A stretch of DNA of 27,267 nt, taken from positions 1 to 27,267 of IMG/VR virus record IMGVR_UViG_3300045996_000833; one strand, given 5' to 3'. Below the pieces are notes generated by a model. It was given only the letters and a program-made list of their open reading frames with translations. It was not told the origin of the DNA and did not search any database. This document shows, piece by piece, positions 5,068 to 17,907 of this stretch (positions within the stretch are counted from its first letter, which is position 1; each line of letters begins with the position of its first letter). The DNA is from a virus. A program made the translations under genes and the position numbers.

Positions 5068-5157
5068 CTATTCTCCGTCCTGAGCCGCGCCAAACGCGAC
5101 CCAGTAGAACGCAAGGCACAGAATGACGTAGGCGAGTGCCCAATTAATCCACAGCAT
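5068..5157 (-). CDS. 29-residue single-span membrane peptide coupled to the repressor
   Basis: The ATG at 5157 overlaps the stop of the Cro-like gene as TAATG, and the frame runs to a TAG at 5068-5070. The peptide is MLWINWALAYVILCLAFYWV (1-20) followed by AFGAAQDGE: one strongly hydrophobic helix with a short polar C-terminus. The coupled start and clean membrane-helix composition argue for a real gene. No family is recognised. Small membrane peptides beside phage switches can act in superinfection exclusion or lysis timing, but nothing here proves that. Confidence 0.55.
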   Translation of the reverse strand: MLWINWALAYVILCLAFYWVAFGAAQDGE

Positions 5158-5399
5158 TATGCTACCTCCAGTAGCTGCGCCAGATCCGGTCGCAGGCTCT
5201 TTGGCGGAATCCCCGTGATTTTAGAGACCCGTGGTACGAGGCTGGCGTCGATCTTTCGCAGGCCGGTCTCCCACCGGCTGATGGTGATGTTGGTGACGCC
5301 CAGTCGCAGCCCGAGCTCATACTGAGAGGTGCTGGTGACGGTGCGCCAGATTTTCAGCGGGTGTTCTTCGGCTGGCTGGCGGGTCTGTTTTTTTCTCAT
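5157..5399 (-). CDS. Cro/CI-type helix-turn-helix repressor
   Basis: The 80-residue protein has one XRE-type helix-turn-helix: SQYELGLRLGVTNITISRWETG (25-46, SQ.ELG..LGV....ISRWE) and a tail PPKSLRPDL common in Cro/YdaS-like phage regulators. No oligomerisation or autocleavage domain is present, so it is the size of Cro. It is transcribed with the replication genes, the position of Cro in lambda-like phages. The ATG at 5399 has no Shine-Dalgarno sequence, and the likely -10 box (TTAAGA, 5412-5407) puts the transcript start at about the ATG, so the mRNA may be leaderless. It probably controls the divergent promoters beside it. Confidence 0.85.
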   Translation of the reverse strand: MRKKQTRQPAEEHPLKIWRTVTSTSQYELGLRLGVTNITISRWETGLRKIDASLVPRVSKITGIPPKSLRPDLAQLLEVA

Positions 5400-8131: not shown

Positions 8132-8298
8132 TGAACTTTATCTTGTTCGAGCTTGCCTGTGAAATGTTGGGCGCTCTGAAAGATCTGAGTCTCTACCGCG
8201 ACGAGGAATCGGCGGAGGCCGCAGACGCCATCATCGCCAAGGCCGAGGCTGCCGGGATTGTCGTCCCGATTGTAGTCCCCGTGGTGGAGGTGGAATGA
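8131..8298 (+). CDS. Hypothetical 55-residue protein ahead of the recombination genes
   Basis: The ATG at 8131 shares a base with the previous stop (TGATG) and follows GGAGGGTG, a good ribosome-binding site. The product is MNFILFELACEMLGALKDLS, an acidic helix with EESAEAADAIIAKAEAAG, and a Val/Pro-rich end. It ends by ATGA overlap with the RecB-like gene. The coupling at both ends supports it despite its size. No function can be assigned. Confidence 0.65.
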   Translation: MNFILFELACEMLGALKDLSLYRDEESAEAADAIIAKAEAAGIVVPIVVPVVEVE

Positions 8299-11123: not shown

Positions 11124-11566
11124 GCGAGGCCACATGCAAGAGGTGCGACGGCAAGCGCGAGTGGCGCGAAGGCATGGGCTTCGGCCTCTATTGGTGCCCA
11201 ACGTGCTTTGCTTGGGGCAACGGCAACGACACTTGGGGTCGGGTGACCGATGAAAGCCCGCCGAGGGTACAGAGTGAGATTGAACCGACATTTCCGTTTG
11301 ACAGTTCAGGCTATTTGCAGGGCCTGATTGACGGGGCCGAGGCCGAGATTGAAACCCTTCGCGCCGAGGTCGAACGCTGGCATCAAAGATGCGTCAGAAC
11401 CGAGGAAGCCCTGCAAGCTGCTGACAGGAAAATAGGAGAGCTTTCCATGCAAATTGTAGAGTTGCAGAAGGCAGTCCAGTTCTGGAAGGCGTCTGACGAG
11501 GCCAAGTTCAAAGCTCTGTGCGAGGCCGTAGATCGCGCTGACGATATGCGGAGGAATAAGCCATGA
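11120..11566 (+). CDS. Zinc-finger plus coiled-coil protein
   Basis: The 148-residue protein has an N-terminal zinc ribbon (Cys6/Cys9 and Cys26/Cys29 in CKRC and CPTC), a linker, and a long helix from about 66 to 130 with heptad-like spacing (AEAEIETLRAEVERWHQRCV, LSMQIVELQKAVQ). It probably forms a coiled-coil dimer with a metal-binding head. No specific family is recognised. It is coupled at both ends to the exported protein and the next large hypothetical. Confidence 0.65.
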   Translation: MSEATCKRCDGKREWREGMGFGLYWCPTCFAWGNGNDTWGRVTDESPPRVQSEIEPTFPFDSSGYLQGLIDGAEAEIETLRAEVERWHQRCVRTEEALQAADRKIGELSMQIVELQKAVQFWKASDEAKFKALCEAVDRADDMRRNKP

Positions 11567-12480
11567 CTGACACCCCAGACTATGCGGAACTGATAGGGAG
11601 GCTGCGGGACCCTCTCGTTGCTGATGACGTGTTGTGCATTGACGCCGCCGACGCCATAGAACGCCTGAAGGGGGATGTGGCGGAAAAGGATAGAGAGATA
11701 AACGAGGCACTTCAATTAACGGAAAGCTGTTCAACGCTGAAGGACATGGCGTCAGCCTGCATCGAAGGGGCGATCTGGAAGCATCGCGCCGAAGCCGCCG
11801 ACGCCATAGAACGCCTGACGGGAGAGGTGGAGGATAGTGGAAAACTAATCCAAGACCTTGAAAAGCTCTATGACGAATACCGTGAGCGCGCTCTAGCCGC
11901 CGAAGCCCAACTCTCCCAAGCCAAGGCAGCGGCGCTGGAAGAAGCGGCGCGGTGTGTGCCGTCGAACTGGTGTGACTCGATGCTTACTGGCCCGGACAAG
12001 GTAGCGGAGTTCGATGACGGTCCCGCCGTCGAGCTATTGCTGAATGCAGTTCGCAACCGCATCCGCGCCCTCATCGACACCCCCGCTCCCGCCCCAGAGA
12101 GTAACCCGGTGCAAGGTGCAGAGCCTGTTGGCAAGCATCCGCTGCGAACAGCAGGCCGAACAGTGGGTGCAAATCCCGCGACCGGGGCCGCTCCCGCCCC
12201 AGAGAGAAAGGAGGGGGCCGACTATTCAGCCCTCACGCGCGAGGAGATCGAATACGTCGATCCGAAATGCGAGGAGTTGTTCAAACGGAGCCGCCCCGCC
12301 CCTATGGGGGAGGAGGAGATAGCGCGGATTATTCTTGACGCATGGCTTTTGCCTGACAGCAGCGAATGGCATCGCAGCGCCGCCCGCAATGTCATTGCAC
12401 ACATTAAAAGGGCCGTTTGGGGCAATTGTCTGGAACAAGCCCGCGCCGTCATCGCCCACATTAACGGGGGAGCCAAATGA
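11563..12480 (+). CDS. Repeat-containing Ea22-like hypothetical protein
   Basis: The 305-residue helical protein starts MTDTPDYAELIGRLRDPLVA, like many variable phage early proteins of the Ea22 type. It is modular: AADAIERL occurs twice, encoded by a perfect 25-bp direct repeat (11644-11668 and 11794-11818), and APAPE occurs twice, encoded by a 19-bp repeat (12083-12101 and 12188-12206). VIAHI also occurs twice near the end. Coiled-coil segments fill 55-130. Such genes are fast-evolving mosaics with no known activity. Confidence 0.65.
   Translation: MTDTPDYAELIGRLRDPLVADDVLCIDAADAIERLKGDVAEKDREINEALQLTESCSTLKDMASACIEGAIWKHRAEAADAIERLTGEVEDSGKLIQDLEKLYDEYRERALAAEAQLSQAKAAALEEAARCVPSNWCDSMLTGPDKVAEFDDGPAVELLLNAVRNRIRALIDTPAPAPESNPVQGAEPVGKHPLRTAGRTVGANPATGAAPAPERKEGADYSALTREEIEYVDPKCEELFKRSRPAPMGEEEIARIILDAWLLPDSSEWHRSAARNVIAHIKRAVWGNCLEQARAVIAHINGGAK
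11644..11818 (+). repeat. 25-bp perfect direct repeat, 150-bp period, inside a gene
   Basis: The unit at 11644-11668 (GCCGCCGACGCCATAGAACG plus CCTGA) recurs exactly at 11794-11818. The 150-bp offset is 50 codons, so the repeat is in frame and recombination between copies would delete a module without breaking the gene. Confidence 0.8.
12083..12206 (+). repeat. 19-bp direct repeat, 105-bp period, inside the same gene
   Basis: CCGCTCCCGCCCCAGAGAG at 12083-12101 recurs at 12188-12206. The offset is 35 codons, again in frame, and encodes the duplicated APAPE linker. Confidence 0.8.
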
Positions 12481-13074: not shown

Positions 13075-13329
13075 ATGAGCGATGTCTATCTAACAGTGAG
13101 CCGGGACAGGTGGACGAATGGCTTGCAGCTTTCGATTGATACCGAAAACCACGGTTACAGAATTGCTGGTCCTAAATTTAATGGCTCCAGCACCACGCTG
13201 ATCAAGCACAAGTTGAACGCGCGGGACGTAAGCGAAATCCAAAGCTATCTCGATGCCGCCACACGTAGCGCTCGGGTGACCGATGATCCTACGCAAAGCC
13301 CACAGAGTGAGATTGAAGATGAGGACTAG
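13075..13329 (+). CDS. Hypothetical 84-residue protein
   Basis: The ATG at 13075 follows AAAGGATAGGAAG. The protein begins MSDVYLTVSRDRWTNGLQLS, with beta-strand character (GYRIAGPKFNGSSTTLIKHK), a helix with ARDVSEIQSYLDAAT, and an acidic SEIEDED tail. This beta-then-helix layout is common in small phage proteins of unknown role. It overlaps the next gene by 11 bp. Confidence 0.7.
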   Translation: MSDVYLTVSRDRWTNGLQLSIDTENHGYRIAGPKFNGSSTTLIKHKLNARDVSEIQSYLDAATRSARVTDDPTQSPQSEIEDED

Positions 13330-13600: not shown

Positions 13601-13665
13601 CCGCACAGGCATCCGCAGCGGCAGAAGCCTCTCGTGACCCCCCTCCTCCTCAGAGAGATAGATGA
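13597..13665 (+). CDS. Possible 22-residue linker peptide gene
   Basis: The frame starts on an ATGA overlap with the gene before and ends on an ATGA overlap with the large gene after. It encodes MTAQASAAAEASRDPPPPQR and two more residues, low in complexity. The double coupling suggests it is translated, perhaps only to carry ribosomes to the next start, where AGAGAG lies close to the ATG. It may have no function as a peptide. Confidence 0.4.
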   Translation: MTAQASAAAEASRDPPPPQRDR

Positions 13666-14875: not shown

Positions 14876-15154
14876 ATGGATATGAACCGCCGCAAGCTCA
14901 TCACGGGGATAGGGGTTAGCCTATTGGCTGCGCCTGCTATCGTGCGCTATTCGTCGCTGATGCCGGTGCGCGGGATAATTGTCCCGGTTAGCAACGATGT
15001 TACTGTGGCAGGGATTCCCCGGACGGCGCTTCTGTCCGTCGCGGACGGCGAATACCGGATCAATGGCGGGGCTTGGACATCCTTGCCCTCTAGGGTATCG
15101 CCCGGAGACATCATCAGCATCCGAGGTACTACTACAGTAACTTTAGGCAGTTAG
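14876..15154 (+). CDS. Tat-signal exported small protein
   Basis: The product has 92 residues from the ATG at 14876, five bases after TGGAGG, which overlaps the stop of the gene before. The N-terminus MNRRKLITGIGVSLLAAPAI (from residue 3) is a twin-arginine signal: RR, a hydrophobic stretch, and a likely cleavage region near residue 25. The mature part (LLSVADGEYRINGGAWTSLP, VSPGDIISIRGTTT) resembles the beta-sandwich repeat found in large secreted proteins. Its stop overlaps that of the convergent gene. I recall similar Tat proteins in alphaproteobacterial phages, of unknown function. Confidence 0.7.
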   Translation: MDMNRRKLITGIGVSLLAAPAIVRYSSLMPVRGIIVPVSNDVTVAGIPRTALLSVADGEYRINGGAWTSLPSRVSPGDIISIRGTTTVTLGS

Positions 15155-15507
15155 TCGTACTGCCTCGACCTGATCTCCCCGGCAACGGCGGCATATCCTG
15201 CCCCGTCAATATAATCATCGGGGTTGAAGGCTCCGGTCAGGCGGCGGGCGACTTTCAGCAACTCCATCATGTTGGCAACGTCATGGGCGTCTAGCTCAAC
15301 CTCTGTGATGCGGGCGCGGGCCATTAGGTAGCCGTTCCACACGTCAGCGATGGCTTTGTGGTTCTGCACGCTGTCCCCGTGGGTGCTGCTGCGGTCCCCG
15401 TTCACCAGCTTGGCAGCCTCTACACAGATCTCGCTTGCCGTCTTCGGCGTGGGCTTCGCCGCAAGTTGCTCCAAAAAGATGTCGCCTGGGCTGCGCTCGA
15501 CAGTCAT
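15151..15507 (-). CDS. DUF6378-like phage protein
   Basis: The 118-residue protein contains EAAKLVNGDRSSTHGDSVQN, VWNGYLMARARITEVELDAH, DVANMMELLKVARRL and GAFNPDDYIDGAGYAAVAGE. This is the pattern of a widespread phage family I remember as DUF6378: GDR...HGD...N, then VA.MM.LLK.AR, then FN.DDY.D..GY. The many conserved His/Asp/Glu residues recall all-alpha NTP pyrophosphatases, but no activity is established to my knowledge. It is the last gene of this leftward block and meets the rightward operon tail to tail with a 4-bp overlap and no visible terminator. Confidence 0.7.
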   Translation of the reverse strand: MTVERSPGDIFLEQLAAKPTPKTASEICVEAAKLVNGDRSSTHGDSVQNHKAIADVWNGYLMARARITEVELDAHDVANMMELLKVARRLTGAFNPDDYIDGAGYAAVAGEIRSRQYD

Positions 15508-16330: not shown

Positions 16331-16668
16331 AGGAGCGCGTCCGTGATCCACGCATTCAGGTCGGGGTTGTCTCTCAGGAGGATGGCGATGCCGGTCGCGA
16401 GGGAGGTGACGATCTGCTCCTCGCTTGGGTTCTTGTTCAGAACGCGCTCTCCCCAGATCGCATGCAGGATCTCGTGCAGGAGGGTGTCGGCAGCGAACTG
16501 GCTGGAGGGCGGCTTGCTGTCCAACTGGATCTTCTGCTCAGTGAAGATGCACAGGCCGTTCTGTTTTGTGCCCTCGTCCATCAGGTTATCGACCACCTCG
16601 ATCTCGTAGGTGAGAAGGCCGACGCGCACCTTGCGGGGAAGGCGAGCCATGAGAGCAGCAACAGTCAT
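16327..16668 (-). CDS. SprT-like zinc metallopeptidase-type protein
   Basis: The 113-residue product starts at the ATG at 16668, which overlaps the exonuclease stop. It has a small beta-sheet N-terminus (VRVGLLTYEIEVVDN), then QKIQLDSKPPSSQFAADTLL and HEILH (65-69), an HExxH zinc site inside a helix. A third ligand is not obvious. The pattern IQL......TLLHEILHA.W is common in small phage proteins related to SprT/ImmA-type peptidases. There is no signal peptide, so it acts in the cytoplasm, perhaps on a repressor or replication protein. Confidence 0.7.
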   Translation of the reverse strand: MTVAALMARLPRKVRVGLLTYEIEVVDNLMDEGTKQNGLCIFTEQKIQLDSKPPSSQFAADTLLHEILHAIWGERVLNKNPSEEQIVTSLATGIAILLRDNPDLNAWITDALL

Positions 16669-17414
16669 AACGCCCCCTTCTTGATTGTCTCTCCGAGGAA
16701 CCATTTGCCGCAGCCCTGACAGTGCATGCGCTGACGCTTGCGGACTTTCGATGTGTCGATGCCGCGTCGTTGCACGTTGGTTGAGCGGCAGGTTGGGCAG
16801 CCGGGGGCGTCGTCGTATGCCGTCATTGACGGATGCGACTTGTCCCACATTTTTAATTTTTCATAGACGTTGCAAAGTAGATCGATATCGCGCGAGTTGT
16901 ACCGGCGCATGGCGCGCCAAGATTTCGGATCGTCGCGATCCATGCAGCCGATCCACATGTCCATGCCGGTATGCACAAGCTTGGACCCGCAATTTAGATA
17001 GCGGCCAATATTGTCTAGCTTGTTGGAGTCAAACTTGAACTGCCGCGCGATCTTGAGAGTGTCTATTGATTTGAAGGGTGAGGGTGGCGGGTAGCCGTTG
17101 ACGATCAGGCGGGCCTTGATCTTTTTTTCGTCGAAGGCGACGCCATTGTGCGCCGCCACGATGTCTGCCCGGTCGAGGTCTTTCCAGAGGTCGGCGCAGA
17201 GAGCCTTGTCTGATTTCTTATTCTTGGAGTAGCCGGGATAGTCTGGGAGGGCGTGGGTGGTGATTTTCTTTTCGCCCTGCCACTTGATCGCGTAGCAGAG
17301 GATGTATGTCGGTTCCAGAACGTGCACGATGCTTGTTTCGTGCAGTGGACCCCACGAATACCCGAGGATCGGCGCGGTTTCTATATCAATGAAAGCGACC
17401 CGTGGGGCTGCCAT
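16665..17414 (-). CDS. DEDD 3'-5' exonuclease with C-terminal zinc ribbon
   Basis: The 249-residue protein has ExoI FIDIETAP (8-15, Asp10, Glu12), ExoII IVAAHNGVAFDEKKI (85-99, Asp95) and ExoIII YNSRDIDLL (172-180, Asp176), the DEDDy order of RNase H-like 3'-5' exonucleases. The last 45 residues add a zinc ribbon (Cys206/Cys209 and Cys232/Cys235) with a basic VRKRQRMHC stretch. No polymerase domain is attached, so it is a stand-alone proofreading or degradative nuclease. The ATG at 17414 follows GGAGCAGTGA. It heads the leftward block ending at 15151. Confidence 0.85.
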   Translation of the reverse strand: MAAPRVAFIDIETAPILGYSWGPLHETSIVHVLEPTYILCYAIKWQGEKKITTHALPDYPGYSKNKKSDKALCADLWKDLDRADIVAAHNGVAFDEKKIKARLIVNGYPPPSPFKSIDTLKIARQFKFDSNKLDNIGRYLNCGSKLVHTGMDMWIGCMDRDDPKSWRAMRRYNSRDIDLLCNVYEKLKMWDKSHPSMTAYDDAPGCPTCRSTNVQRRGIDTSKVRKRQRMHCQGCGKWFLGETIKKGAL

Positions 17415-17536
17415 TCACTGCTCCAGTTCTGCTGGTTACGGGGACGCACGAAAGTGCCGCAAATCACTTTTTGTTACACGTAACTCCTAGCAAACAGAGC
17501 GACGACTGCTGCTAAGTCATTGATCTTTTCCGCGAG
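17415..17536 (-). promoter_or_regulatory. Upstream region of the exonuclease block, with GTTAC/GTAAC inverted repeat
   Basis: No gene is seen. GTTACACGTAAC (17473-17484) has perfect 5-bp arms around two bases, about 60 bp upstream of the exonuclease start, a possible operator. I do not find a convincing leftward -35/-10 pair, so the promoter of this block is not located. Confidence 0.3.
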
Positions 17537-17578
17537 CAACAATAGTGCGAAAGTCAATATGCTATAATGCTATTGTTG
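17537..17578 (+). promoter_or_regulatory. Rightward promoter framed by an inverted repeat
   Basis: A perfect TATAAT lies at 17563-17568. The 9-bp arms CAACAATAG (17537-17545) and CTATTGTTG (17570-17578) flank it, covering the expected -35 position and the transcription start. The -35 itself is weak (about 17540-17545). The layout suggests a promoter controlled by a repressor or activator that binds the arms. Next to it, ATGCTATA and ATGCTATT form a short tandem. Confidence 0.55.
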
Positions 17579-17626
17579 GTTGGGAATGGTCCCACCAGCG
17601 GGCTGTTTGAAATCGTGGAGATGAAC

Positions 17627-17872
17627 ATGGGCTGGATTACAAATCCCGCACCCGGCACCGAACTCGGACCATGCAAGGAGCCGTGCAAGCACAAAGACTG
17701 CGAGCAAGCGCGGATCGACGCGACGGCAGAATGCTATCTCTGTCACAAGCACATCGGTTACGAGACGAGGTATTACTGCGATACTCACTATGACGACGCC
17801 GGGAAACTCACGGCTAGGGTCTACTCTCACATGACCTGCGCCCTAAAGTCCTTCCGAGAAAAGATAGCTTAA
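17627..17872 (+). CDS. Cys-rich small protein in a stand-alone unit
   Basis: The 81-residue product starts at the ATG at 17627, six bases after GTGGAG; upstream in-frame starts lie before or too near the predicted transcription start. It holds Cys16, 20, 25, 36, 39, 51 and 71 plus several His (PCKEPCKHKDC, ECYLCHKHIGYETRYYC, SHMTC), a likely two-zinc treble-clef or ribbon fold. No signal peptide. It is the only rightward gene between leftward blocks and has its own promoter and terminator, so it is moron-like. Family not recognised. Confidence 0.75.
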   Translation: MGWITNPAPGTELGPCKEPCKHKDCEQARIDATAECYLCHKHIGYETRYYCDTHYDDAGKLTARVYSHMTCALKSFREKIA

Positions 17873-17878
17873 ACTCAG

Positions 17879-17907
17879 GCCGCGCTCTTAACCGGGCGCG
17901 GCTTTTT
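17879..17907 (+). terminator. Rho-independent terminator, rightward
   Basis: GCCGCGC (17879-17885) pairs perfectly with GCGCGGC (17896-17902) around a 10-nt loop and is followed by TTTTT (17903-17907). It lies seven bases past the stop of the Cys-rich gene and abuts the end of the convergent leftward late block. Leftward it has no good U-run. Confidence 0.9.

Follow-up and report, generated by a model that had tools for sequence, protein, structure and literature searches.

Phage morons are usually expressed independently, each with its own promoter and terminator. By a published definition, a moron is a gene that the comparison of related phages reveals as an apparent insertion in an operon (PMC2629481). 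Examples include the ant moron of P22-like phages (PMC2629481) and STMMW_20121 of prophage ST64B (PMC7067206). Small zinc proteins of phages include Com of phage Mu, which is an RNA-binding protein (PMC6483171). Here, a compact unit at positions 17537-17907 (plus strand) of virus record IMGVR_UViG_3300045996_000833 is compared with these systems; the window analysed is the whole 27,267-bp record, possibly a fragment. The unit consists of a promoter-like element, a ribosome-binding site (RBS), an open reading frame (ORF) for an 81-aa protein and a terminator, and it is the sole plus-strand gene within a minus-strand block. With a probability of about 0.6, it is a one-gene moron cassette encoding a two-zinc, non-enzymatic module that binds nucleic acid or protein. 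Its host phage is a soil-type phage. Like the described morons, the unit appears inserted in an operon relative to a related phage, lies antisense to its flanking genes and has promoter-like and terminator sequences of its own. Unlike them, it is a single tiny gene with one close comparator, known from sequence and without prophage signs.

The flanking genes are both on the minus strand. One encodes a DNA polymerase exonuclease subunit (16665-17414; match to PHROG_403), the other a predicted secreted protein (PHROG_19619; 17908-18351) with relatives in Bradyrhizobium and Sinorhizobium phages; a rhizobial host is a guess drawn from such neighbour homology. The 81-aa ORF is oriented opposite to these two co-directional genes of one operon. 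In the syntenic relative L002, a 46-kb record whose flanking proteins are 66% and 70% identical to those of the window, only 27 bp lie between the same two genes, whereas the window has 493 bp (the inserted segment, 17415-17907, plus strand). Homology between the two records extends as far as the PHROG_19619 stop codon and picks up again at the exonuclease start. The zinc-protein family described below is absent from the entire L002 record and from the records of three further exonuclease relatives (four including L002). No terminal or target repeats were found flanking the insert, the longest shared word being 5 bp. The word GCTATTG, also present in the L002 intergenic stretch, was considered and set aside as not significant (p 0.055).

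Under the comparative definition, the alignment with this single comparator makes the unit a moron. That reading is supported because the L002 site is empty and the unit has its own promoter-like and terminator sequences. The preliminary description had proposed a moron oriented against both flanking blocks and a search for presence/absence variation among relatives; the L002 comparison supports the proposal and supplies the variation. It had also suggested expression independent of the lytic programme, with lysogenic conversion among the possible roles. A further mark of morons is expression from the prophage, to the benefit of the lysogen. Neither a tyrosine nor a serine integrase turned up in the window or in three related records, all possibly fragments, and for that reason the lysogen reading is without support here.

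An exact TATAAT is located at 17563-17568, approximately 60 bp upstream of the ORF, in the extended -10 form TGcTATAAT (17560-17568). The pattern TGnTATAAT was observed twice in the window against 0.1 expected, and the element is likely to be a promoter; it is absent from the output of a stock promoter scan. The RBS, GGAG (17617-17620), lies 6 nt before the ATG of the ORF (17627-17872, stop included). Downstream, at 17877-17904, lies an intrinsic terminator hairpin with an 11-bp stem; the T-tract after it reaches as far as the stop codon of the PHROG_19619 gene on the other strand. Its predicted folding energy is -20.7 kcal/mol (z = -5.2), and 0 of 200 shuffles were as good. The sequence features that bear on independent expression of the unit are the extended -10, without a -35, and this strong terminator.

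The TATAAT lies within a 9-bp inverted repeat. The arms, CAACAATAG (17537-17545) and CTATTGTTG (17570-17578), are exact and have 24 bp between them; the left arm is notable by position only, and the right arm falls near the expected transcription start. Exact 9-bp inverted repeats with loops of up to 40 bp occur at chance frequency in the window (4 observed, 6.2 expected), so this repeat is unremarkable by itself. The probability of such a repeat enclosing a given TATAAT was estimated post hoc at ~0.002 from local composition, or ~0.012 over the six TATAAT sites. The half-site has no second exact copy in the window and none near the phage helix-turn-helix (HTH) gene at 5157-5399, and an operator shared across the phage was rejected on these grounds. 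The arrangement of a repeat around TATAAT was also not seen upstream of homologues. While the perfect TATAAT inside a 9-bp repeat is exactly as first described, the phrase "operator-framed" comes down to position, and the repeat is an unproven operator.

Approximately 30 homologues of the 81-aa protein were recovered from phage contigs by two degenerate motif pattern scans of viral contigs; single-sequence scans of viral and genome contigs had returned none before these patterns were used. L025, L031, L004, L006-L008, L010 and L011 were chance pattern matches and were dropped from the family. In an alignment of 26 members, 13 positions are invariant, including C16, C20, H22, C25, C36, H68 and C71. 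C39 is nearly invariant, the aligned member L044 lacking the second Cys of CxxC, and C52, among the seven Cys of the window protein, is not common to the family. The window protein follows the family pattern G-P-C-x3-C-x-H-x-[DN]-C-x3-R-x2-A-x3-C-x2-C-x3-I-G-Y...H-x2-C, and the family profile matches it at E 4e-26, a value obtained by construction given that the protein is a row of the alignment. Conservation across the family amounts to 27-44% identity, with the reading frame kept open.

Library searches with the window protein gave no Pfam family up to E = 1 (including zf-PARP and Com), no NCBIfam match, no PADLOC family (0 matches), nothing significant in a PDB sequence search and a best PHROGs E of 0.55, which is not significant; nine homologues and L016 were also without a significant PHROGs match. 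A tblastn search against annotated phages returned nothing for the window protein, for two homologues or for the zinc domain of a third. The family is new to libraries, otherwise a modest zinc family that is common in environmental phages. The preliminary description had recognized no family for the protein. In Pfam, PHROGs and NCBIfam no match exceeds the cut-off, and the protein turns out to belong to an uncatalogued family of about 30 members. The profile search it had suggested for the 81 residues yielded no known family and no PHROG match to a phage structural zinc protein. The homologues also show that the seven-cysteine ORF it had pointed out is a real gene.

The family extends beyond phages. 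One member is carried on a Rubrobacter tropicus plasmid, where it is annotated as hypothetical and is 58% identical to the phage homologue L042. Searches of the Acidobacteria phylum returned one metagenome-assembled genome (MAG) and two weak matches only. The MAG has two family copies, at L016 957-1661 and on G001 contig 162, one of them forming the N-terminal part of a 234-aa protein. In L016, the zinc domain is joined to ~150 C-terminal residues that match no Pfam family, a fusion that hints at a targeting role for the domain within a larger protein.

In other phages, the neighbours of the homologues are small genes and, in some cases, genes for replication or partition: a DnaB gene is two genes downstream of the homologue in L028, and a ParB-like gene is ~1.2 kb downstream of that in L049. 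Of 25 phage homologues, at least 13 immediately adjoin an upstream gene on the same strand (by a home-made gene caller), and TATAAT is present within 120 bp upstream of 0 of the 25. On these counts, the autonomous arrangement belongs to this phage and not to the family, whose members are not inherently morons.

AlphaFold2 applied to the family alignment produced a confident model (predicted local distance difference test, pLDDT, 95.5; predicted template modelling score, pTM, 0.80), the outcome of a structure prediction that had been suggested from the outset. The model has an N-terminal C-x3-C-x-H-x2-C knuckle followed by a helix (23-33), then CxxC, a hairpin (48-55, 61-68) and a helix (69-80) beside H68-x2-C71, which together form a treble clef. 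Two sets of putative zinc ligands, C16, C20, H22, C25 and C36, C39, H68, C71, are paired from their spacing. The eight are conserved in the family (L044 minus one), which together with the treble-clef model supports the zinc-type assignment made from the letters of the ORF. PARP-type fingers hold the top Foldseek ranks (prob 0.99, E 0.05-0.2, sub-threshold). In a fold comparison (VIA), PARP and RING domains tie at Z ~4 over 57-58 residues, a value at which the tool warns that only a common arrangement may be meant. The likeness to PARP/RING-type zinc fingers is weak but consistent. An HNH nuclease was rejected; the match to Cronobacter CR9 from the viral fold library was weak, and no conserved extra His/Asp pair exists beyond the ligands and D24.

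The resemblance to described zinc domains is partial in each case. The treble clef with CX2C...HX2C ligands is shared with zf-PARP, whereas the additional N-terminal C-x3-C-x-H-x2-C site, the lack of a Pfam match, an identity of 12-16% and the shorter hairpin of many members set the family apart. A literature search found no zf-PARP precedent in phages. Mu Com is likewise a small stand-alone zinc protein of a phage, but it has no Pfam sequence match to the window protein and a different ligand spacing. Some family members have sub-threshold local similarity to DUF2175/RING-type zinc domains of Pfam, and RING rows reach the Z given above; these similarities are well below Pfam cut-offs, and the order of the eight ligands differs from that of RING.

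In the favoured reading, the cassette sits antisense between two co-directional genes of the phage operon and would most likely be transcribed by host RNA polymerase from the extended -10 promoter. Its terminator would stop the antisense run of the transcript into the PHROG_19619 gene. The product, a small two-zinc protein of an uncatalogued family with a fold predicted at high confidence, would contact DNA, RNA or a host protein early in infection. A non-enzymatic binding module is the most likely function because, the zinc ligands aside, no catalytic set is conserved; possible partners include DNA, RNA (as for Mu Com) and host proteins. Several points weigh against this reading. No -35 hexamer is recognisable upstream of TGcTATAAT, and transcription of the unit is predicted from sequence. 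The binding role is deduced from the fold and the absence of catalytic residues only, and the structural likeness is weak (Foldseek E 0.05 at best; Z ~4). The empty site is seen in L002 only, and insertion and loss are not separable because there is a single close comparator. The records may also be fragments.

Other explanations deserve consideration. It is possible, if doubtful, that the unit encodes an accessory protein, early or tied to replication, that was merely relocated and binds DNA, for instance at nicks or ends as PARP-type fingers do. This reading draws on the Foldseek ranking, on the DnaB and ParB-like genes near two homologues, on the polymerase exonuclease next door and on a CX2C-x28-HX2C spacing that matches PARP-type fingers. 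However, the structural matches are sub-threshold, Pfam zf-PARP has no match, most homologues have a shorter hairpin and the gene is absent altogether from the exonuclease relatives. A Com-like regulator of phage or host expression, or a modifier of host RNA polymerase, with the repeat as its autoregulatory operator, is unlikely. The arms either side of the -10 do share much the same face of the DNA (33 bp apart), and the enclosing of a given TATAAT has the low p noted above, but inverted repeats this long are no more frequent than chance, the half-site has no second exact copy, homologues are without the motif upstream, and no Com or other regulator family is matched in Pfam or NCBIfam. In a broader form, an early-acting two-zinc phage family would work on host transcription or nicked DNA, this phage having independently acquired a self-regulated cassette with the repeat as a real operator; this combination is rather more improbable.

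Accessory, antisense and presence/absence-variable phage genes often have roles of the anti-defence or superinfection-exclusion type (PMC7067206). A moron of this type, binding a host defence protein, would fit such a gene and the scatter of the family over unrelated phages and a plasmid. It is nevertheless an improbable identity for the unit: PADLOC gave no match, no neighbouring defence or anti-defence gene was seen, and relatives are commonly within small-gene operons. A fossil or cryptic insertion without function would agree with the failure to find the gene in relatives of this phage, but it is very improbable in view of the fully intact putative ligands, the intact RBS, the strong terminator and the conservation of the family with an open frame.

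An orphan-looking ORF thus becomes one of about 30 phage proteins in a defined family; with its confident model and ligands that hardly vary, mutants and binding assays can be designed directly. For a minimal moron, the locus and its L002 counterpart also form a clean pair of filled and empty sites, in a phage of a little-known group. Should the protein turn out to target host transcription or DNA ends, it would represent a new class of small phage effectors.

Several minor observations concern the surroundings of the unit. Within the inserted segment, upstream of the exonuclease start, a small inverted repeat GTTAC-AC-GTAAC (17470-17490) might belong to a minus-strand promoter or operator of the exonuclease gene. 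The PHROG_19619 protein has a conserved GxCISACTL motif, and its relatives are signal-peptide proteins of rhizobial phages; an extracytoplasmic hydrolase is possible, this reading of the motif being a guess. A 118-aa protein at 15154-15507 (minus strand) has a PHROG match labelled phosphofructokinase (E 2e-27), which is probably a mislabel of a domain without known function. Short DNA blocks of the window (8232-8269, 11345-11450, 11563-11609, 12060-12098, 13268-13317 and 13637-13665) are 95-100% identical to L002 while the surrounding genes are only ~70% alike. The block at 13268-13317 is present twice in L002 (8453-8502 and 8835-8879). The blocks lie inside small genes or at their ends, and may represent shared modules or linkers for recombination.
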